NCBI GenBank assembly: GCA_018993155.1
Contig: JAGKSX010000099.1
Span: 16,850 to 80,849 of the forward strand
Direction: 5' to 3'
Length of the DNA stretch: 64,000 nt
Origin: Hydrogenophaga sp.
GTDB taxonomy: Bacteria > Pseudomonadota > Gammaproteobacteria > Burkholderiales > Burkholderiaceae_C
How positions within the stretch are numbered: the first letter of the stretch is position 1; each line of letters starts with the position of its first letter. The notes beneath the pieces are model-generated. The model had not been told where the DNA came from, searched no databases, and was given only the letters and a program-made list of their open reading frames with translations. A program made the translations under genes and the position numbers. Below are positions 36,688 to 45,081 of the stretch, one piece after another.

Positions 36688-37033
36688 ACGCCGAGGGCAC
36701 GCGCCGGCACGGGGTGCAGCGGCCCGCGCGTCGGCGCGCCACGAAGAAGGCCTGAACGGCGAACCGTTCGGGCCACCGGCTGCGCCTGCAGTCCCGGCGC
36801 TGAGCGCCTCCCATTTCCCCTCCATCACACCGCGCCGTCGGCATGAGGCGCAGGCCTCTGCGCGCGCGTTGACGCCCCATCACCGGCCGTCGCATCGGGG
36901 AAAACACTTATCTCACGATCGAGACAAGTATCAAAAAAGATACTAGTATCAAAACATAGAAGAGATGTCGAACCTCGCCGAGACCTTGCGGCGATGTCCC
37001 GTGCAACGAAAGCCCTGCGGGGTGGAGACTCAA
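36688..37033. other. intergenic region upstream of the orotate-type operon
   Basis: No convincing gene is present in these 346 bases. The left 200 bases are GC-rich with no recognised element. The right part turns AT-rich (36,901-36,960) and contains the palindromes listed separately. A short ATG-led frame at 36965 merely extends the transporter and lacks proper ribosome-binding spacing. Confidence 0.6.
36911..36954. promoter_or_regulatory. operator-like palindromes upstream of the MFS gene
   Basis: TCTC-N6-GAGA lies at 36911-36924. GTATC-N6-GATAC lies at 36928-36943 with AAAAAA as spacer. GATAC-TA-GTATC at 36939-36950 overlaps it, and GTATCAAAA continues to 36954. The two six-base-spaced palindromes are 18 bases apart, centre to centre. 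This is the only AT-rich patch in the region and is the best candidate binding site for the XRE regulator encoded in the operon. Confidence 0.6.
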
Positions 37034-38245
37034 ATGAGCAAGAAGGATGCGGTGGATGGCTACAGCTGGAAAGCCCTGGCAGGCTCGGCGGTGGGCTATG
37101 CGATGGATGGATTCGACCTGCTGATCCTGGGCTTCATGCTCAGCGCGATCTCGGCCGAGCTGCAACTGACGCCCAGCCAGGCCGGGTCGCTGGTGACCTG
37201 GACCCTGGTGGGCGCGGTCTTCGGCGGCATCGTCTTCGGGGCGCTGAGCGATCGGTACGGGCGCATCCGGGTGCTCACCTGGACCATCGTGCTGTTCGCC
37301 GTCTTCACCGGCCTGTGCGCATTCGCGCAGGGCTACTGGGACTTGCTGATCTACCGCACGATCGCGGGCATCGGCCTGGGCGGGGAGTTCGGCATCGGCA
37401 TGGCGCTGGCGGCCGAGGCCTGGCCCGCCAAACACCGCGCGCGCGTGTCCTCGTACGTGGCGCTGGGCTGGCAATGTGGCGTGCTCGGCGCCGCCTTGCT
37501 GACGCCCTTGCTCCTGCCCGTCATCGGCTGGCGTGGCATGTTCCTGGTGGGGGTGCTGCCCGCCTTGGTGGCCTGGGTGATCCGCAACAAGCTGCATGAG
37601 CCCGAGGTGTTCGTGCGCAGTGCCGCCAAGACGGCGTCGAAGGGGCAGGCTTTCAGGTTGCTGGTGAAGGACAAGGCGACCGCGAAGATCAGCGCGGGCA
37701 TCGTGGTGCTGTGCTCGGTGCAGAACTTCGGCTACTACGGCATCATGATCTGGATGCCCAGCTTTCTGGCCAGGCAGCTCGGGTTCAACCTCACCAAGTC
37801 GGCCCTGTGGACCTCGGTGACCATCCTCGGGATGATGGCCGGCATCTTCATCTTCGGCCAGCTGGCCGATCGCATCGGCCGCAAGCCCAGCTTCCTGCTG
37901 TTCCAGGCAGGCGCCGTGGTCATGGTGCTGTTCTATTCGCAACTGACCGATCCCATCCAGATGTTGTGGGCGGGTGCCGTGCTGGGCATGTTCGTGAACG
38001 GCATGCTGGGCGGCTACGGTGCGCTGATGTCGGAGGCCTACCCGACGGAGGCCCGTGCCACGGCGCAGAACGTGCTGTTCAACATCGGCCGCGGCGTGGG
38101 TGGGTTCGGGCCCGTGGTCGTGGGGGCACTGGTGAGCGCCTATTCGTTCCAGATCGCCATCGCCTTGCTGGCGGCCATCTACCTGCTGGACATGGTGGCC
38201 ACGGTGTTCCTCATTCCCGAACTCAAGGGCAAGGAACTGGAATGA
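37034..38245 (+). CDS. MFS transporter, proposed orotate/dihydroorotate importer
   Basis: The 403-residue protein has 12 predicted helices and the major facilitator motif GALSDRYGRIRVL between helices 2 and 3, with a second copy (GQLADRIGRKPS) in the second half. DGFDLLILGFML in helix 1 is typical of the aromatic acid/H+ and lactate/H+ symporter groups, which carry small carboxylates. The ATG at 37034 follows GGTGGAG at 37021-37027, preferred over 36965. It overlaps pyrK by ATGA. Orotate as substrate is inferred from the genes that follow. Confidence 0.9.
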   Translation: MSKKDAVDGYSWKALAGSAVGYAMDGFDLLILGFMLSAISAELQLTPSQAGSLVTWTLVGAVFGGIVFGALSDRYGRIRVLTWTIVLFAVFTGLCAFAQGYWDLLIYRTIAGIGLGGEFGIGMALAAEAWPAKHRARVSSYVALGWQCGVLGAALLTPLLLPVIGWRGMFLVGVLPALVAWVIRNKLHEPEVFVRSAAKTASKGQAFRLLVKDKATAKISAGIVVLCSVQNFGYYGIMIWMPSFLARQLGFNLTKSALWTSVTILGMMAGIFIFGQLADRIGRKPSFLLFQAGAVVMVLFYSQLTDPIQMLWAGAVLGMFVNGMLGGYGALMSEAYPTEARATAQNVLFNIGRGVGGFGPVVVGALVSAYSFQIAIALLAAIYLLDMVATVFLIPELKGKELE

Positions 38246-39141
38246 CCGAAGCGCTCCAGCGTCTCCCGGCCGCACCGCGAGCCTGCGCCACCCTGACCGA
38301 GCGCGCCTGCTTCCAGCGCAATGCCGAGGCGGTGGCCTCGCACCGCTGCGAAGTGGTGGAGCACCGTTGGGTCAACGACCGCTACAAGTACCTCCGGCTC
38401 ACCGCCGAGGTGGATCTCGCGGCCATCACCCGGCCCGGGCAGTTCTACCAGCTCAAGTGCCCGTCGACCGACGACATGAAGCCTTTCCTGCTGCGGCCGA
38501 TGAGCGTCTATGGCGTCGGCCCCGCTCCCGGCACCGTCGAATTCCTCTACAACGTGACCGGCCTGGGTACGAAGGCCCTGGCGACCCTGGCCGTGGGTGG
38601 ACAGATGGACATCGTCGGCCCCCTGGGCAACACCTTCGTGCTGGACGCCAGCGTCCGGCGCATCCTGGTGGTGGCGCGGGGTGTCGGCCTGGCCACCATG
38701 GCGCCCTTGCTGCAACTGGCGGCGCGCTCGGGCATCGCCATCACGGCGGTGATGTCGGCACGCGCACCCAAGGACCTGATGCGCGACGAATTCCTGCGCG
38801 GCGCGCAGGCCGATGTGCACGTGGTCCATGACAGCGATGGCAGCTCGTCGGTCGAGGCGGTCGAGGCCCTGGTGCGTCGGCTGATGGACGCGCAGCACCA
38901 CGATGTGGTCTACACCTGTGGATCGCACCGCCTGCTCATGTTGCTGCAGCAGGTGCTGAAGGACTATCCGCAGACGCGCGGTGAAGTCGCCATGGAACAG
39001 CGAATGGCCTGTGGCATGGGGGTCTGCCTCTCCTGTGTGCGGCTGTTCGACCACGGCGGCGACAAGCGGTTCCTGCGCGTCTGCCGCGAAGGCCCGGTGT
39101 TCTCGATCGATCAGGTGGTGGGGGAGGTGGAGTTTGGCTGA
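38242..39141 (+). CDS. pyrK: dihydroorotate dehydrogenase electron-transfer subunit PyrK
   Basis: PyrK carries FAD and [2Fe-2S] and couples class 1B PyrD to NAD(H). The ferredoxin-reductase-like FAD site has LLRPMSVYG near residues 80-88, and a nucleotide-binding region follows (ILVVARGVGLATMAPLL). The cluster motif is complete: Cys257-x4-Cys262-x2-Cys265-x15-Cys281 (ACGMGVCLSC, then CREGPVF). At 299 residues it is longer than the usual 230-280 because of an N-terminal extension. The ATG at 38242 overlaps the transporter stop, and pyrD overlaps its end. An NAD-linked PyrDK in a betaproteobacterium, whose biosynthetic PyrD is normally the quinone-linked class 2 enzyme, points to catabolism. 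Confidence 0.9.
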   Translation: MTEALQRLPAAPRACATLTERACFQRNAEAVASHRCEVVEHRWVNDRYKYLRLTAEVDLAAITRPGQFYQLKCPSTDDMKPFLLRPMSVYGVGPAPGTVEFLYNVTGLGTKALATLAVGGQMDIVGPLGNTFVLDASVRRILVVARGVGLATMAPLLQLAARSGIAITAVMSARAPKDLMRDEFLRGAQADVHVVHDSDGSSSVEAVEALVRRLMDAQHHDVVYTCGSHRLLMLLQQVLKDYPQTRGEVAMEQRMACGMGVCLSCVRLFDHGGDKRFLRVCREGPVFSIDQVVGEVEFG

Positions 39142-40084
39142 TCTCCATGTCAAAGTGGGCGACGTCGTGCTGCGCAACCCTGTCATGCCCGCCTCCGGCT
39201 GCTTCGCGATCGAGTACGCCGAAGCGCTGGACTTCAACCGCCTGGGCGCGCTGGTGATCAAGAGCGTCTCGCCGAAACCGCGCGCGGGCAACCCCACGCC
39301 GCGGGTGACCGAAACCCACGGCGGCATGATGAACTCGATTGGCATCCCGAGCAAAGGCCTGGAACACTACCGGCGCGAAGTGCTGCCGCCCTACACGCGG
39401 TTCGACACACCGGTCGTCGTGTCCATCTCGGCCGACACGGTGGACGAGTTCGCGCAGGCCATCGAGGAGATGTCGCTGCCGGAGGTCGCCGTGATCGAGG
39501 CGAACATCTCGTGCCCCAACCTGGAGGCCGACGGCATGGCTTTCGCGATGACGCCCGAAACCACCTACAAGGTGGTGAGCGCCATCCGGCGGCGAACCCC
39601 GCATCCGTTCTGGGTCAAGCTCACCCCCAACGCATCGCACATTGCCGCCGTGGCGAAAGCCGCCGAGGAGGCCGGGGCGGATGCCCTGGTGATGGGCAAC
39701 ACGGTGCTGGGCATGTCCATCGACGTCCGCACCCGAAAGCCTAAGCTGGGCAATGTCATGGGGGGCTTGTCCGGACCCGCCATCAAGCCGATTGCCTTGC
39801 GCATGGTGCACCAGTGCTACCGCAGCGTGCGCATCCCGGTCATCGGCTGCGGCGGCATCTCGACCGCCGAGGACGCGGTCGAGTTCATGCTGGCCGGTGC
39901 CAGTGCCGTCCAGGTCGGCACGGCATCGTTCATCGATCCCGGTGCGATGCAGAAGATCATCGACGGTCTTCACGCCTTCTGCGACGAGACCGGCGTGACC
40001 CACATCCGCGAGTTGACCGGCCAGGTCCGGCTGGATCGGCAGCTGTCCGACCGCTGGTTGCGCTTTGCCCAGCAATCGGGTTGA
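39134..40084 (+). CDS. pyrD: dihydroorotate dehydrogenase, class 1B catalytic subunit
   Basis: The FMN barrel interconverts dihydroorotate and orotate; with PyrK it can use NADH to reduce orotate. ANISCPN places the class 1 catalytic cysteine at Cys127, where class 2 enzymes have serine. NPVMPASGCF near residues 14-23, FWVKLTPN and IPVIGCGGISTAEDA are FMN and phosphate-binding blocks. The start is TTG at 39134, chosen because GGGGAGG lies at 39121-39127 and the protein then begins as the family does; this overlaps pyrK by eight bases and gives 316 residues. Confidence 0.92.
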   Translation: MADLHVKVGDVVLRNPVMPASGCFAIEYAEALDFNRLGALVIKSVSPKPRAGNPTPRVTETHGGMMNSIGIPSKGLEHYRREVLPPYTRFDTPVVVSISADTVDEFAQAIEEMSLPEVAVIEANISCPNLEADGMAFAMTPETTYKVVSAIRRRTPHPFWVKLTPNASHIAAVAKAAEEAGADALVMGNTVLGMSIDVRTRKPKLGNVMGGLSGPAIKPIALRMVHQCYRSVRIPVIGCGGISTAEDAVEFMLAGASAVQVGTASFIDPGAMQKIIDGLHAFCDETGVTHIRELTGQVRLDRQLSDRWLRFAQQSG

Positions 40085-40105
40085 TGCCCACCGCCGGCGA
40101 CTTCC

Positions 40106-41362
40106 ATGAACCTTGCTGAACTTCGGCCCCTGGCCGAAAAACTCTTTGCCGACATCCGTGAACTCTCGTTCGACGGGGTGGGCGTGACGCGGGAAAGCTA
40201 CGGACCGGGCGAAACCGCCACGGCCAACTACCTGCGGGACTTCGCGCACTCGGAGGGGCTGGTGGCCACCTCGGACCGGGCCGCCAACGTGGTGTTCTCG
40301 CTGCCGGACGCACCGGTGGATCGGCCTTCGGTCTGGATCGGTTCGCACATCGACTCGGTGCCGCAAGGCGGCAACTTCGACGGTCTGGCCGGGGTCGTGG
40401 CGGGCCTGCTGTGCCAGGTGGCCCTGCGGCGCCAGGGCGTCAGTCCCGCGGTGCCCATCCAGACCATTGCCTTGCGGGGCGAGGAAAGCGCCTGGTTCGG
40501 CAAGGCCTATATGGGCTCCGGCGCCCTGTTCGGCCAACTGGGCGCCGAGGACCTGGTGCTGCGCCAGCGCAGCACCGGCGAGTGCCTGGCCGATTGCATG
40601 AAGCACAGCGGTGCCGACATCGAGGCGGTCCGCGCGCAGGAGGTGCTCATCGACAAGGCGGCGGTCAAGGCCTATATCGAACTCCACATCGAGCAGGGGC
40701 CGGTGATGGTGGCGCGCCAGCTGCCGCTGGCCGTGGTGTCGGGCATCCGTGGCAACGTCCGGCACAACCGCATCGAGTGCCTGGGCGATGCCCAGCACTC
40801 CGGCGTGGTGCCGCGCTGGCTCCGCCACGACGCCGTCTTCGCCGTCTCCGACCTCGTCATGCGGCTGGACGCCCATTGGCGGGCCCTGCTGGAACGCGGC
40901 ACCGATCTGGTGGTGACGGTGGGCATTCTGCAGACGGACACGGCGGAACACGCCATTTCGCGCATTCCCGGGCAGGTGGGCTTCAGCCTGGAGGCGCGCA
41001 GCAAGAGCACGGACACGCTCGAAGCCTTCTACCAGCTGGTCCAGGCCGAGGTGAGTGCGATCACCCGCGAGCGAGGCGTGACCTTCCGCTTCGACCGCCG
41101 CCTGGTGAGCGAGCCCGCCACCATGGACGAGCGCCTGTGCGCCCTGTTGTCGCAGGCTTGCGCGGACCAGGGCGCGGCCTGCGAAGTCCTGCCCAGCGGC
41201 GCCGGGCACGACGCCGCGCTGTTCGCCAACGCGGGCATTCCCAGCGCGATGCTGTTCATCCGCAACCAGAATGGCTCGCACAACCCGCACGAGTCCATGG
41301 ACCTCGACGATTTCATGCTGGGCGTGCAGGCGCTCTCCGTCGCGGCCAGCCGCATCGCCTGA
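40106..41362 (+). CDS. M20 N-carbamoyl-amino-acid hydrolase, proposed ureidosuccinase
   Basis: The 418-residue protein belongs to the dinuclear-metal AmaB/HyuC/AllC group, which removes N-carbamoyl groups from amino acids or ureido acids and releases CO2 and ammonia. Metal ligands are visible: GSHIDSV (His81), NFDG (Asp92), RGEES (Glu126-Glu127), ELHIEQG (His194) and NGSHNPHE (His392). A lid/dimerisation domain lies at about residues 212-325. Its place between dihydroorotate dehydrogenase and dihydroorotase suggests N-carbamoyl-L-aspartate as substrate. Allantoate or hydantoin-derived substrates are the alternatives, but no hydantoinase or allantoinase is nearby. Confidence 0.9.
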   Translation: MNLAELRPLAEKLFADIRELSFDGVGVTRESYGPGETATANYLRDFAHSEGLVATSDRAANVVFSLPDAPVDRPSVWIGSHIDSVPQGGNFDGLAGVVAGLLCQVALRRQGVSPAVPIQTIALRGEESAWFGKAYMGSGALFGQLGAEDLVLRQRSTGECLADCMKHSGADIEAVRAQEVLIDKAAVKAYIELHIEQGPVMVARQLPLAVVSGIRGNVRHNRIECLGDAQHSGVVPRWLRHDAVFAVSDLVMRLDAHWRALLERGTDLVVTVGILQTDTAEHAISRIPGQVGFSLEARSKSTDTLEAFYQLVQAEVSAITRERGVTFRFDRRLVSEPATMDERLCALLSQACADQGAACEVLPSGAGHDAALFANAGIPSAMLFIRNQNGSHNPHESMDLDDFMLGVQALSVAASRIA

Positions 41363-41373
41363 AGAGGCCGACC

Positions 41374-42591
41374 ATGACCGACCTGATCACGATCCGGCGC
41401 CCCGACGACTGGCACCTGCATCTTCGCGATGGCGACGTGCTGGCCACCGTGCTGCCCTACACCTCAGGGTGGTTCGGGCGGGCGATGGTCATGCCCAACC
41501 TCCAGCCGCCGGTGACCACGGTGGAGGCGGCCCGCGCCTACCGGGCGCGCATCCTGGCCGCGGTGCCCGCAGGCGATCGCTTCACGCCCCTGATGGCCGC
41601 CTACCTCTGCGACCACACGCCGCCCGACGAATTGCGCCGTGGCCACGAAGAGGGCGTGTTCAGCGCCGTCAAGCTGTACCCGTCGGGCGCCACCACGCAT
41701 TCGGAATTTGGCGTGACGGACATGGCCAAGGTGGCCCGGGCGCTGGAGTGCATGCAGGCCATCGGCATGCCGCTGCTGCTGCACGGTGAGAGCACGGACC
41801 CGGCGGTGGACGTGTTCGATCGCGAGGCGGTGTTTCTCGAGCGCACGCTGCAGCCGCTGCTGCGCGACTTCCCCGCGCTGAAGGTGGTGCTGGAGCACAT
41901 CACCACCGAAGAGGCGGCGCAAGTGGTGCGGTCCAATCACAGCGGGCGCCTGGGCGCGACCATCACGCCGCAGCATCTTCTGTTCAACCGCAACGCCATC
42001 TTCACCCAGGGCATCCGGCCGCACTTCTACTGCCTGCCGATCCTGAAGCGGGAGCGCCACCGGCTGGCCCTGATCCAGGTGGCGACCTCGGGCGACGCCC
42101 GTTTTTTCCTGGGCACCGACTCGGCGCCCCACGCGCGCGCGCTGAAGGAATCCGCCTGCGGCTGCGCTGGGATCTTCAACGCGCCCACCGCCCTGGCGGC
42201 CTACGCCACGGTCTTCGATCAGGCCGGCGCGCTGGATCGCCTGGAGGCCTTTGCGAGCCTCAACGGGCCCCGGTTCTACGGCCTCTCGCCCAACGAGGAC
42301 ACCCTCACCCTGCTGCGCGCGCCGCAAACGGTGCCCGACAACGTGGCGCTGCCCGGCGGCGCGGCGATCCACCCTTTCCTGGGCGGGAGCACCGTGCCCT
42401 GGCAGGTGCGCCCGGCGCCATCCCCATCGCTCACCCACGGCCCGGAGCCTGCCCATGAAATCGTCCGTTCGTCCCCATCGCACGCGGGTGCGCCGCAGGA
42501 GGGTGCGCAACCGGGGGAGGGCGCCCGTTCGACGCGGGTATGTCTTTTCCAGCGGGTGCCCTATATTCTCTTTTTTGATTCGACCGAGTGA
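41374..42591 (+). CDS. pyrC: dihydroorotase, with unusual C-terminal extension
   Basis: The enzyme resembles E. coli PyrC (class II) and interconverts dihydroorotate and N-carbamoyl-aspartate reversibly. DWHLHLRDGD (His14, His16), VKLYPSGATT with the carboxylated Lys100, EHITTEEAA, TPQHLLFNRN and FLGTDSAPHA are all present. The natural end of the family corresponds to VPWQV near residue 344, yet the frame continues for about 60 Pro/Ser/Ala-rich residues through the promoter region of the next gene and stops eight bases before it. The extension is probably non-functional. The ATG at 41374 is 12 bases after the hydrolase stop. Confidence 0.93.
   Translation: MTDLITIRRPDDWHLHLRDGDVLATVLPYTSGWFGRAMVMPNLQPPVTTVEAARAYRARILAAVPAGDRFTPLMAAYLCDHTPPDELRRGHEEGVFSAVKLYPSGATTHSEFGVTDMAKVARALECMQAIGMPLLLHGESTDPAVDVFDREAVFLERTLQPLLRDFPALKVVLEHITTEEAAQVVRSNHSGRLGATITPQHLLFNRNAIFTQGIRPHFYCLPILKRERHRLALIQVATSGDARFFLGTDSAPHARALKESACGCAGIFNAPTALAAYATVFDQAGALDRLEAFASLNGPRFYGLSPNEDTLTLLRAPQTVPDNVALPGGAAIHPFLGGSTVPWQVRPAPSPSLTHGPEPAHEIVRSSPSHAGAPQEGAQPGEGARSTRVCLFQRVPYILFFDSTE
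42562..42579 (+). promoter_or_regulatory. internal promoter and operator-like site before the XRE gene
   Basis: TATATT at 42562-42567 is a good -10 box in an otherwise GC-rich region. TCTTTTTTGAT at 42569-42579 lies just downstream, a typical repressor position. The same 11 bases occur, in reverse complement, inside the GTATC-N6-GATAC palindrome upstream of the transporter. No good -35 box is visible. The site overlaps the pyrC extension. Confidence 0.5.
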
Positions 42592-42598
42592 AAAAGAG

Positions 42599-43519
42599 AT
42601 GAGCACACCCGTCTTGCCACCAGCTTCCTCGATTGACTACGCGGACCTGGGCAACCGGCTCAAGGCCTACCGCATCGGCGCGTCGCTGCAGGCTGAGGAT
42701 GTGGCCGAGCAGCTCGGCGTGTCGCGCGCGGTGGTGTACCGCATGGAGAAGGGCGAGATCGTCAAGATCGAGACCCTGGAGAGGCTGGCCCAGCTGCTGA
42801 ACACGTCGCTGGCCTCCTTGCTGGGGGTGGAAGTCGAGTACTACTCGAACGCCCTGGGCCTGTTCGAACGCATGCGCCAGCTCGAGCAGACATCCGACCG
42901 CATCCTGGCCCACTTCGAACCCATTTCCTTGCTGCTGACCTCCGACGAGTACCTGACGCACCTGCGGGAAATGCTGCTCGAGGCCTCGCCAAAACCCCAG
43001 GGCAAAGCGCGCCAGGGCGAAGTGGAGGACATGCTGACCATCCTGGCCGAGCGTCGGCGGTTCTTCGAGCAGCGCCGCATGAGCATCGTGAGCCTGATCG
43101 GCATGCGCGAGCTGGAGCGCTTCGTGCTGACGGGGCTGGTCGGGCGGGTCGATCTCCCGCACGAGGTCCGGATGCAGCGCGTGCGGGCCGCGCGCAACGA
43201 AGTGGTGCGCATTGCCGATCTGATGGAGAGCGAGCCGCTGAATGTGCAGATCGGCCTGATCGACGACGCCATGCCCTCGTCGACCTTCCAGCTGTTTTCC
43301 GGGAACCAGCGCACCGTGCTGGCGGTGAGCCCCTTCAGGCTGGGCGAGTTGCCCAACGTGCGCAACGGCATTGCCACCGTGACCGCCTCACCCGAGGCCG
43401 TGCGCCTGTACGAGGACATGATCGGCCGCCTCTGGAAGAGCGCCTACAAGGGCCGCACGGGCGCGCAGCGCTTGCGGCGCCTGCTGGAGCGGGTGGATGC
43501 ATTGACGGAGTTGCCATGA
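42599..43519 (+). CDS. XRE-family regulator of the orotate-type operon
   Basis: The 306-residue protein has an N-terminal helix-turn-helix at about residues 18-70 (GNRLKAYRIGASLQAEDVAEQLGVSRAVVYRMEKGEIVKIETLERLAQLL). A long C-terminal domain of about 230 residues follows (TSDRILAHFEPISLLLTSDEYLTHL, SEPLNVQIGLIDDAMPSSTF) that I do not recognise but that looks like an effector-binding domain. It starts seven bases after pyrC and overlaps pyrE by four. Its position and the shared TC-N6-GA sites suggest it senses a pathway compound and controls the locus. Confidence 0.9.
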   Translation: MSTPVLPPASSIDYADLGNRLKAYRIGASLQAEDVAEQLGVSRAVVYRMEKGEIVKIETLERLAQLLNTSLASLLGVEVEYYSNALGLFERMRQLEQTSDRILAHFEPISLLLTSDEYLTHLREMLLEASPKPQGKARQGEVEDMLTILAERRRFFEQRRMSIVSLIGMRELERFVLTGLVGRVDLPHEVRMQRVRAARNEVVRIADLMESEPLNVQIGLIDDAMPSSTFQLFSGNQRTVLAVSPFRLGELPNVRNGIATVTASPEAVRLYEDMIGRLWKSAYKGRTGAQRLRRLLERVDALTELP

Positions 43520-44199
43520 TGCCCAACCCATCCTCCGCCCATGCGGTGGCCGAGCTGCTGATCGAGGCGGGCTGCGTCAGCTGCCGGACCGATGAGCCTT
43601 TCCGCTTGCCATCGGGCTGGGCCAGCCCGGTGTACATGGATTGCCGTCGACTGATTTCGTTTCCACGGACGCGGCAGGTGCTGCTTGAGCAGGCCCTGGC
43701 CCGGCTTCGCGCCGCCGGCGCCCTGGAGGGCCTGGCCGCCGTGGCGGGCGGGGAGTCCAGCGGCATCGCCTTCGCGGCCTGGATGGCGGATGCCTTGAAC
43801 CTGCCCCTGCAATACGTTCGCAAGCGCGCCGTGGGCCAGGCCCAGGTGGAAGGCGTGGTGGCGCCCGGCTCGGCGGTGCTGCTCGTGGACGACCTGATGG
43901 CCGCGGGCCTGTCCAAGCTCACGTTCTGCCAGGCCCTGCGCGCGCGGGGTGCCGTGGTCCGCGACGTCTTCGTGGTGTTCGACTACGGCACCTTCGATGC
44001 CACGGCGATGCTGCACGCGCACCAGATGCGTGTGCATGCCCTGTGCACCTGGCAGGACGTGCTCGATGCCGCGCGCGGGCGCGATGGGTTCGACCCATCG
44101 GCCGTCGCGGAATGGGCCGCATTTCTTCGAAACCCGGGGGCGTGGTCCGAGGCCCATGGTGGCATCGCATCCTCCCCCGTGTCCCCTGTCCCCGCCTAA
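43516..44199 (+). CDS. pyrE: divergent orotate phosphoribosyltransferase
   Basis: OPRT makes OMP from orotate and PRPP. The protein matches a PyrE branch with PFRLPSGWASPVYMDCRRLISFP and AGGESSGIAFAAWMADAL near the N-terminus and middle. The PRPP loop reads VLLVDDLMAAGLSK, which satisfies the general PRPP signature but lacks the usual T-x-G-G/T residues. The flexible catalytic loop after YVRK is shortened to RAVGQAQVEG, about five or six residues fewer than related proteins. It may be a weak enzyme or an orotate sensor. Length is 227 residues; the ATG at 43519 is an alternative start. Confidence 0.85.
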   Translation: MMPNPSSAHAVAELLIEAGCVSCRTDEPFRLPSGWASPVYMDCRRLISFPRTRQVLLEQALARLRAAGALEGLAAVAGGESSGIAFAAWMADALNLPLQYVRKRAVGQAQVEGVVAPGSAVLLVDDLMAAGLSKLTFCQALRARGAVVRDVFVVFDYGTFDATAMLHAHQMRVHALCTWQDVLDAARGRDGFDPSAVAEWAAFLRNPGAWSEAHGGIASSPVSPVPA

Positions 44200-44214
44200 A
44201 GGAGAACCTCCGGC

Positions 44215-44541
44215 ATGACTTTTCAACACATCGCGCAGACGTTTGCGCAGGGCCTGGCGGGAACCGACCAGTTCAAGGCGTTCTACAAAGGCGCGTTCGC
44301 CCTCATGAAGACGGATCCGGCCAACGCCGCGCTGTATTTCGTGGTGGGCGTCGCGGCCCATTCCTATGTGCAGAAGTTCGAGGACCAGGCGGTGGACCCC
44401 GCGCAGGCGGACCAGGCCAAGGCGACGCTCGACGCGTTCAATGCGCGCTTGCTGGCGTCGCTGTCCCAGTCGCCCGAGGAGCGCCTGGCCGCGGTGAGCG
44501 CCGTGGCGCTCGACTACGAGTGGAACGTCCAGGCGTTCTGA
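44215..44541 (+). CDS. conserved-looking small protein of unknown function
   Basis: The 108-residue protein is mostly helical, soluble and moderately acidic, with FKAFYKGAFALMKTDPANAALYFVVGVAAHSYVQKFEDQ at its centre (shown in parts by residues 18-57). No signal or membrane helix is credible. AAAGGAGAA precedes the ATG with good spacing. It follows pyrE by 15 bases and precedes the LOG-family gene by 15, so it belongs to the operon. I do not recognise the family; a small accessory or stabilising subunit is possible. Confidence 0.75.
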   Translation: MTFQHIAQTFAQGLAGTDQFKAFYKGAFALMKTDPANAALYFVVGVAAHSYVQKFEDQAVDPAQADQAKATLDAFNARLLASLSQSPEERLAAVSAVALDYEWNVQAF

Positions 44542-44556
44542 ACGTCCCTGGGTGCC

Positions 44557-45081
44557 ATGGCCGTCATCGGCGTCATGGGTTCGGGCTCCCGACCCTGGAA
44601 CCGGCTCGCCAAACCACTGGGCGCGTGGATCGCCGAGGCCGGCCACCACCTGCTCACAGGCGGTGGCCAGGGCGTGATGGCGAGCGTGGGCAAGGCGTTT
44701 CACGAACACCCCGGCCGACGCGGTTGCGCCATCGGGGTGCTGCCTACCCTGGCCGACCCCGAGCGCGGTTTCCGGCCGCTGGAGGGCTACCCCAACGCGC
44801 ATGTCGACATCCGGATCGTCACGCCGCTCCCGCGCCGTGCCGCATCCGATCCACCCGAGCTGCACACGCGCAACCACGTGAACGTGCTGAGCAGCGACGT
44901 CGTCGTGGCCTTGCCGGGTGCGCACGGCACCCACGATGAGGTGCGCCTGTGCCTGGCGTTCCACAAACCCGTCATCGGCTTCGGGCCGCAGGCGCAGTTT
45001 GCGGACATGCCGGGCGAGCTGTTGGTCGTGCAGCGCCTCGAGCGCGTCGTCGCGTTCATCGAAGACCAGCTGAAAGCCTGA
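44557..45081 (+). CDS. LOG-family / TIGR00725-like nucleotide-binding protein
   Basis: The 174-residue protein has the Rossmann-like core of the LOG/putative lysine decarboxylase superfamily: VIGVMGSG at residues 3-10, HLLTGGGQGVMASVGKAF near 33-50, and VALPGAHGTHDEVRLCLAFHKPVI near 115-140, the last replacing the classic PGGxGTxxE. Characterised LOG and PpnN proteins cleave nucleoside monophosphates to base and ribose 5-phosphate. In this operon such an activity could return OMP or UMP to the free base, but the altered motif makes a non-catalytic role equally possible. Confidence 0.82.
   Translation: MAVIGVMGSGSRPWNRLAKPLGAWIAEAGHHLLTGGGQGVMASVGKAFHEHPGRRGCAIGVLPTLADPERGFRPLEGYPNAHVDIRIVTPLPRRAASDPPELHTRNHVNVLSSDVVVALPGAHGTHDEVRLCLAFHKPVIGFGPQAQFADMPGELLVVQRLERVVAFIEDQLKA

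Follow-up and report, generated by a model that had tools for sequence, protein, structure and literature searches.

A candidate orotate-utilisation operon in Hydrogenophaga sp. and its relatives, with pyrimidine enzymes predicted to run in reverse and a putative N-carbamoyl-L-aspartate hydrolase

Why should a bacterium with its own genes for pyrimidine biosynthesis carry a further set of pyr genes around a carbamoylase? The question is raised by an operon of Hydrogenophaga sp. located in a 64,000-nucleotide stretch of contig JAGKSX010000099.1 (assembly GCA_018993155.1, positions 16,850 to 80,849), hereafter called the window. A preliminary description of this locus had proposed that it serves orotate utilisation. 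Our analyses lend support to this proposal, and we consider it highly probable that orotate is taken up by way of the operon and serves as a source of both nitrogen and carbon.

A check of the open reading frames (ORFs) of the window yielded nine frames, all on the plus strand, between 37034 and 45081. They form the tight run described earlier, with overlaps of at most 8 bases and gaps of at most 21 bases. We scanned the nine proteins with Pfam and NCBIfam models, and scores are given here in bits relative to the cut-off of each model. The first gene (37034–38245, with an alternative ATG at 36965) codes for a carrier of the MFS type, the putative orotate importer. Its match to aromatic acid/H+ symporters is clear, at 363.7 bits for a cut-off of 418.55. 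It is followed by genes for PyrK (38242–39141), the electron-transfer subunit, and PyrD (39134–40084, TTG start), a putative NADH-dependent orotate reductase. PyrK has the Fe-S domain PF10418 (53 bits, cut-off 23.9), and the Cys motif noted previously is indeed complete, since all four 2Fe-2S Cys residues are invariant in the seven operon PyrK proteins that were aligned. The curated PyrK equivalog cut-off is missed (best score 128.1 bits, cut-off 314); judged by its sequence, the protein is a divergent PyrK. The assignment of PyrD to class 1B agrees with its scores against two class 1 models (NF005574, 379.7 bits for a cut-off of 269; TIGR01037, 335 for 270), and its best-matching solved structures include 1ep1, the PyrD subunit of dihydroorotate dehydrogenase B. 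After the M20 gene comes pyrC (41374–42591). Its product was correctly recognised as a dihydroorotase, as it scores 436.9 bits with the dimeric dihydroorotase model (cut-off 292.95), and it would here act in the ring-opening direction.

The host genome (4.9 Mb, 94.2% complete) harbours the biosynthetic counterparts of these genes outside the operon, a point that the preliminary description had asked to be checked. We found PyrB on contig C51 (300.9 bits), a second dimeric PyrC (455.3 bits), a second PyrD that is quinone-dependent according to its model (519.6 bits, cut-off 457) and PyrE (178.6 bits, cut-off 106.8). In contrast, the family scans detected neither PyrB nor a carbamoyl-phosphate synthetase among the nine operon genes, as had been claimed. 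A biosynthetic role is thus as unlikely as first thought, and to judge from gene content the operon is probably dispensable for pyrimidine biosynthesis in its host. Similarly, in each of the 23 distinct operon-bearing genomes tested (24 entries, four genomes and 20 loci, of which G022 and L025 are identical), two or more DHO_dh matches exceed the cut-off; the analysis of the second copy's class covered the window host alone. In Leclercia (L042), the two main DHO_dh matches contain internal stops.

To place the operon among its relatives, we scanned contigs of GTDB genomes with the seven-PyrK alignment and kept the best 80 of 376 loci. For gene calling we used a P108 profile and a reference set taken from the window, L009, L013, L014, L015, L018, L020 and L044, and genes were counted in the contiguous cluster on either strand. 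The loci come mainly from Burkholderiales (Variovorax, Cupriavidus, Pandoraea, Paraburkholderia, Pusillimonas and Pseudacidovorax), and also from Alphaproteobacteria, Pseudomonas entomophila, Leclercia and one Thermoflexia metagenome-assembled genome. The co-occurrence of class 1B PyrDK with an M20 enzyme, which the preliminary description had suggested looking for, is found in 78 of the 80, so the grouping of these genes is not due to chance. Only L064, where the contig breaks off within PyrD, and L082 from Thermoflexia lack M20. XRE, P108 and PyrE are present in 58, 54 and 50 clusters, respectively, the MFS carrier in 52 (51 at 60% identity or more) and a porin-like gene, named by eye and without an NCBIfam match, in 29. 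Aspartate ammonia-lyase is encoded in 20 clusters (742.1 bits, cut-off 510), and a malic-enzyme-like protein in five (538.6 bits, below the cut-off of 1178). TRAP genes occur in 16, some of them at a distance. The carrier varies between MFS, TRAP and, in the Pseudacidovorax group, an amino-acid-type ABC transporter named by eye, while PyrDK and M20 stay. The PyrC slot is also variable. On the Pseudomonas putida plasmid p716811-VIM it holds another dihydroorotase class (NF006688, 701.3 bits, cut-off 535), as it does in P. entomophila, which indicates that one gene has been exchanged for another with the activity preserved. The aspartase and malic-enzyme-like genes, the exchange of dihydroorotase class and the exchange of carriers around constant PyrDK and M20 all argue for orotate catabolism. 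The patchy spread of the operon also speaks for it, with PyrK in four of 299 genomes of the family, host included, and with copies on plasmids of several proteobacterial classes.

The pathway would proceed as follows. The MFS symporter would take up orotate, and PyrDK, NAD-linked and of class 1B by sequence, would use NADH to reduce it to dihydroorotate. PyrC would then open the ring to give N-carbamoyl-L-aspartate, which the M20 enzyme would cleave irreversibly to L-aspartate, CO2 and NH3. Class 1B dihydroorotate dehydrogenases are NAD-linked and reversible, as is the dihydroorotase reaction, whereas decarbamoylation is irreversible. The M20 step would thus pull both upstream steps backwards, towards aspartate. 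Aspartase, encoded in the cluster in some relatives but not in the window, would convert aspartate to fumarate and NH3, and the malic-enzyme-like protein of a few loci would also carry aspartate onwards.

The assignment of the hydrolase (40106–41362) is central to this scheme. It scores 266 bits with the hydantoinase/carbamoylase subfamily model TIGR01879 (cut-off 204), and its solved relatives include the N-carbamoyl-L-amino acid hydrolase 3n5f and the allantoate amidohydrolase 1z2l, among others. The preliminary description had credited it with all metal ligands. Among 86 M20 proteins of the clusters, copies with internal stops being excluded and denominators giving the sequences with the column, the residues that we take to be these ligands are conserved (H81, 86/86; D92, 85/85; E126, 85/86; H194, 85/85; H392, 84/84), in line with that statement. 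The Arg of the motif GIRGN, Arg215, is conserved without exception in the cluster enzymes (85/85), and the five aligned solved relatives have Ala, Val, Val, Gln and Ala at this position. We hypothesise that this residue might hold the second carboxylate of carbamoyl-aspartate. Arg286 was also considered as a diagnostic residue and was dropped in favour of Arg215, because 11 of 85 sequences have Val, Ile or Lys there instead. Hydrolysis of N-carbamoyl-L-aspartate is the reaction of ureidosuccinase (EC 3.5.1.7), and from its gene neighbours we infer that the window M20 protein is this enzyme.

Several observations weigh against orotate catabolism. Judged by our reference proteins, only 26 of the 80 clusters encode a PyrC (25 of the dimeric class and one of the other class, inside the L097 operon; L095 has a reverse-strand match to the latter), so that in the other clusters this step would fall to the housekeeping enzyme or to a class not recognised here. 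Moreover, the 80 loci hold many near relatives, notably from Pandoraea, and hence do not represent 80 independent events. In a wider sample, at the level of the order, PyrK is matched at 1e-30 in 18 of 399 genomes. We inspected ten of them, the host and nine others. M20 is present in the fetched stretch of four (G000, G413, G524 and G664) and is missing next to PyrK in the other six (G377, G330, G458, G658, G494 and G554), all at 44–45% PyrK identity; four of these six (G377, G330, G458 and G554) have PyrC. Conversely, of the ten family genomes with M20 at 1e-90, four have a PyrK match and six have none. Four of the latter (G020, G088, G190 and G232; 54–56% identity) encode PyrE and M20 together with an ABC transporter, and the stretch of G146 (43% identity) shows no further pyr gene; the neighbourhood of the sixth, G150 (42% identity), lay outside the comparison. 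M20 and PyrDK are thus tightly linked among the closest relatives and less so at greater distance, and there may be a sister system that acts on another substrate. These counts do not alter our weighing of the explanations. Loci L106–L109 have a PyrE–M20 pair with an amino-acid-type ABC transporter and no PyrDK, and L107 also has a GntR regulator and a divergent LysR-type regulator, named by eye.

These data bear on a first alternative, in which a different ring is degraded, such as dihydroorotate itself, a substituted hydantoin or another carboxylated pyrimidine, with PyrDK acting on an orotate-like compound supplied by a molybdenum hydroxylase. PyrK relatives of ~44% identity without M20 speak for it, three of them near ORFs that by eye resemble CoxG or xanthine dehydrogenase subunits, as do similar neighbours annotated in L016 and L017 and a molybdopterin oxidoreductase beside the operon on two Variovorax plasmids. 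However, the window dihydroorotase lies well above its cut-off, no such hydroxylase is found among the operon genes, and aspartase is encoded in 20 of the 80 related clusters. We therefore regard this alternative as improbable. The three loci with such ORFs nearby (L116, L118 and L121) contain PyrK–PyrD, some with PyrC, and lack a match to the M20 references, as do L016 and L017. Such clusters possibly belong to another heterocycle pathway. On the deep-seawater plasmid L016 (7732–12045), PyrK–PyrD genes are found amid genes for cupins, a ring-hydroxylating dioxygenase, a ferredoxin subunit and an asparaginase.

According to a second alternative, the M20 protein is an ordinary allantoate amidohydrolase or general L-carbamoylase that merely sits in the operon. 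The nearest NCBIfam models carry such names, and this counts against the substrate proposed here; both are missed, allantoate amidohydrolase at 385.4 bits (cut-off 399) and Zn-dependent hydrolase at 380 (cut-off 461). The six family genomes with M20 and no PyrK match also fit this idea. Nevertheless, M20 is linked to PyrK in nearly all of the 80 loci, and the window enzyme is 47–73% identical to those of beta-, gamma- and alphaproteobacterial operons, compared with a match at 1e-46 for the best solved carbamoylase. We give this alternative very little weight. It is just as hard to credit that the operon is an acquired biosynthetic or salvage set in which orotate import, PyrE and an extra PyrDK raise the supply of UMP: the PyrE-like gene is frequent in the clusters, and PyrDK and PyrC can run forwards, but M20 would break down the carbamoyl-aspartate, separate copies of PyrB, PyrC, PyrD and PyrE are present in the host, the PyrE loop of the window is three residues short, and the operon lacks PyrB, to which a single locus of the 80 has a match (L047, 29% identity, on the other strand).

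The XRE protein (42599–43519) is very likely the local regulator of the operon. A perfect palindrome, GATACTAGTATC (36939–36950), ends 83 bases before the MFS start and is the likely XRE binding site, and a weaker second copy, GAGACAAGTATC (36921–36932), has two mismatches. By way of GATACTAGTATC, XRE would control transcription from the MFS promoter until it senses orotate or one of the products. The motif GATACTARTATC is present exactly in seven of 57 MFS upstream regions and with up to two mismatches in 14, compared with 0.0 and 0.38, respectively, in dinucleotide shuffles. In these 14 loci, XRE is always on the PyrK strand, and loci with a divergent XRE gene have at least three mismatches. 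L020, L024, L040, L075 and L084 have a same-strand XRE gene, yet three to five mismatches. An inverted-repeat element directly before the XRE gene (42567–42599, plus strand) is a possible autoregulatory site; CTTTTTYGAT occurs exactly in six of 22 XRE upstream regions, versus 0.005 in simple shuffles. Since both motifs were first spotted by eye in the regions counted, the upstream counts are not an independent test. Genome-wide uniqueness is such a test, and in the 4.9 Mb host genome the exact operator occurs once, at the window operon, with one further site at one mismatch. The element before XRE also bears on the small gap between PyrC and XRE claimed earlier. The gap is there in the frames, but the PyrC frame is overlong, with a C-terminal extension of ~50 residues relative to Variovorax PyrC (353 and 356 residues) that reaches the XRE start and makes the gap look small, and the shared element lies directly before XRE. 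The C-terminal domain of XRE has phospholipase-D-like structure matches (best E 2.2e-4, TM 0.36) that are too weak to name a ligand. In the Pandoraea loci L041, L043, L045, L049 and L061, where XRE is divergent, a different palindrome close to TTGTCTAAATATTTAGACAA precedes the MFS gene; it is maybe the operator of this subgroup.

The last three genes differ in how closely they follow the operon. The PyrE-like phosphoribosyltransferase (43516–44199) just misses its curated cut-off (239.3 bits, cut-off 245), in keeping with its earlier description as divergent. In 15 of 51 aligned PyrE-like sequences, the window included, the flexible loop lacks three residues; the alignment takes in L018, which is biosynthetic, and L062, in which no loop is aligned. 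TRAP-type operons with an aligned loop have it in full, except L019, and so do L028, L032, L036, L040, L047 and L059, which are MFS-type or without a visible carrier and have a PyrE of the window kind. Its enzyme activity may be weak or lost, or the protein may serve in binding. P108 (44215–44541) is a 108-residue protein with no Pfam or NCBIfam match at E 0.001. It is predicted to form five helices (mean pLDDT 92.7), and comparison with solved structures gave no convincing relative (best E 0.68). Its profile matches two of the 399 order genomes, the host and G413, both with the operon; G524 and G664, which have PyrK and M20, gave no match. On an Agrobacterium plasmid (L015, 10718–12376), one annotated gene encodes a protein of 552 residues in which P108 is fused to the C-terminus of M20. 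A dihydroorotase–P108 fusion in P. entomophila was rejected, as its ORF is a long alternative frame, which leaves the M20–P108 fusion as the sole one standing. Most likely, P108 works with M20 as a subunit or scaffold, as suggested by this gene fusion and by co-occurrence. The LOG protein (44557–45081) belongs to SLOG cluster 4 (89.6 bits, cut-off 26.3), as proposed. Its membership of the pathway is doubtful, however: it is found in just five of the 80 clusters, four times on the other strand, which makes it a weak point of the earlier interpretation.

The operon is also found on plasmids of Beta-, Gamma- and Alphaproteobacteria. A gene for a methyl-accepting chemotaxis protein lies near the operon on the P. 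putida plasmid L013 (15172–16842). In Klebsiella, 53 plasmid records match the window PyrK (~65% identity), and 53 match M20. On one of them (L009, 8561–21555), a divergent MFS gene is followed by PyrK-PyrD-M20-PyrC-XRE-P108, with lacY and lacZ nearby, and the operon adjoins lac in 49 of the 53 (at least 80% cover of an operon plus lac query). Megablast found no match to the Klebsiella copy in 5,426 complete E. coli genomes. Leclercia (L042) has a chromosomal copy of the Klebsiella-type operon that is broken in several genes. The source is milk or mastitis milk for nine of the 53 plasmids and human for 29; there is no background rate for these figures, so they show no enrichment. Orotate is described as one of the non-protein nitrogen compounds in the milk of ruminants (PMC8614319), and a milk-nutrient cassette in Klebsiella is plausible. 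A more far-reaching picture combines three elements: widespread orotate catabolism in which M20 is the ureidosuccinase gene and needs a P108 subunit, a degenerate PyrE that is an orotate-binding partner of XRE rather than an enzyme, and an operon that travels with lac in Klebsiella as a milk-nutrient cassette. That all of these hold together is doubtful, and we propose it tentatively.

The operator, the recurrent P108, the TRAP and ABC variants and the Klebsiella lac plasmids are additions to the preliminary description. The latter knew of no described aerobic operon of this composition. The underlying chemistry is old, and the open-access PMC papers searched gave no description of the operon, of its hydrolase gene, of P108 or of the operator. 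If our interpretation is correct, it provides genes for a pathway otherwise known to us only through anaerobe biochemistry and proposes a gene for the hydrolysis of carbamoyl-aspartate. It would also supply a rule by which copies of 'pyrD', 'pyrK' and 'pyrC' that sequence records file as biosynthetic can be re-annotated. Our interpretation also suggests a link between milk orotate and Klebsiella plasmids with lactose genes. Plasmids of mastitis Klebsiella have been described to carry lac and fec modules, with a lac operon and a milk source (PMC12724306), and their likeness to the present plasmids resides in the lac genes that the orotate operon adjoins. The main text of that paper contains no occurrence of 'orot', 'dihydroorot' or 'pyrC'.

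Three catabolic systems resemble the proposed pathway. In ergothioneine utilisation, ErtD and ErtE are, from their family descriptions, a ring-opening amidohydrolase and an M20 N-carbamyl-L-glutamate hydrolase. However, the window M20 protein remains far under the ErtE cut-off (274.9 bits, cut-off 520), and the window PyrC belongs to a different family, that of dihydroorotases. Reductive uracil catabolism (Pyd) employs PydA/PreA, a dihydropyrimidinase and a beta-ureidopropionase, and thus follows the same three-step logic of ring reduction, ring opening and carbamoyl hydrolysis. Its dehydrogenase is akin to dihydroorotate dehydrogenases (PMC4016543, section 5), and that section does not describe the present cluster. 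Unlike the Pyd pathway, the window operon would employ the PyrDK and PyrC families in reverse. A further parallel is the fermentation of orotate by an anaerobe. Clostridium (Zymobacterium) oroticum reduces orotate to dihydroorotate with NADH, opens the ring and cleaves carbamoyl-aspartate with ureidosuccinase. The preliminary description held that the operon encodes exactly those steps; enzyme families for all three are indeed encoded together here, but the exactness of the correspondence, like the substrates, is inferred. In contrast with C. oroticum, the system presented here is a defined proteobacterial gene cluster with a carrier, a regulator, an operator and P108, and it offers a candidate gene for the hydrolase step.

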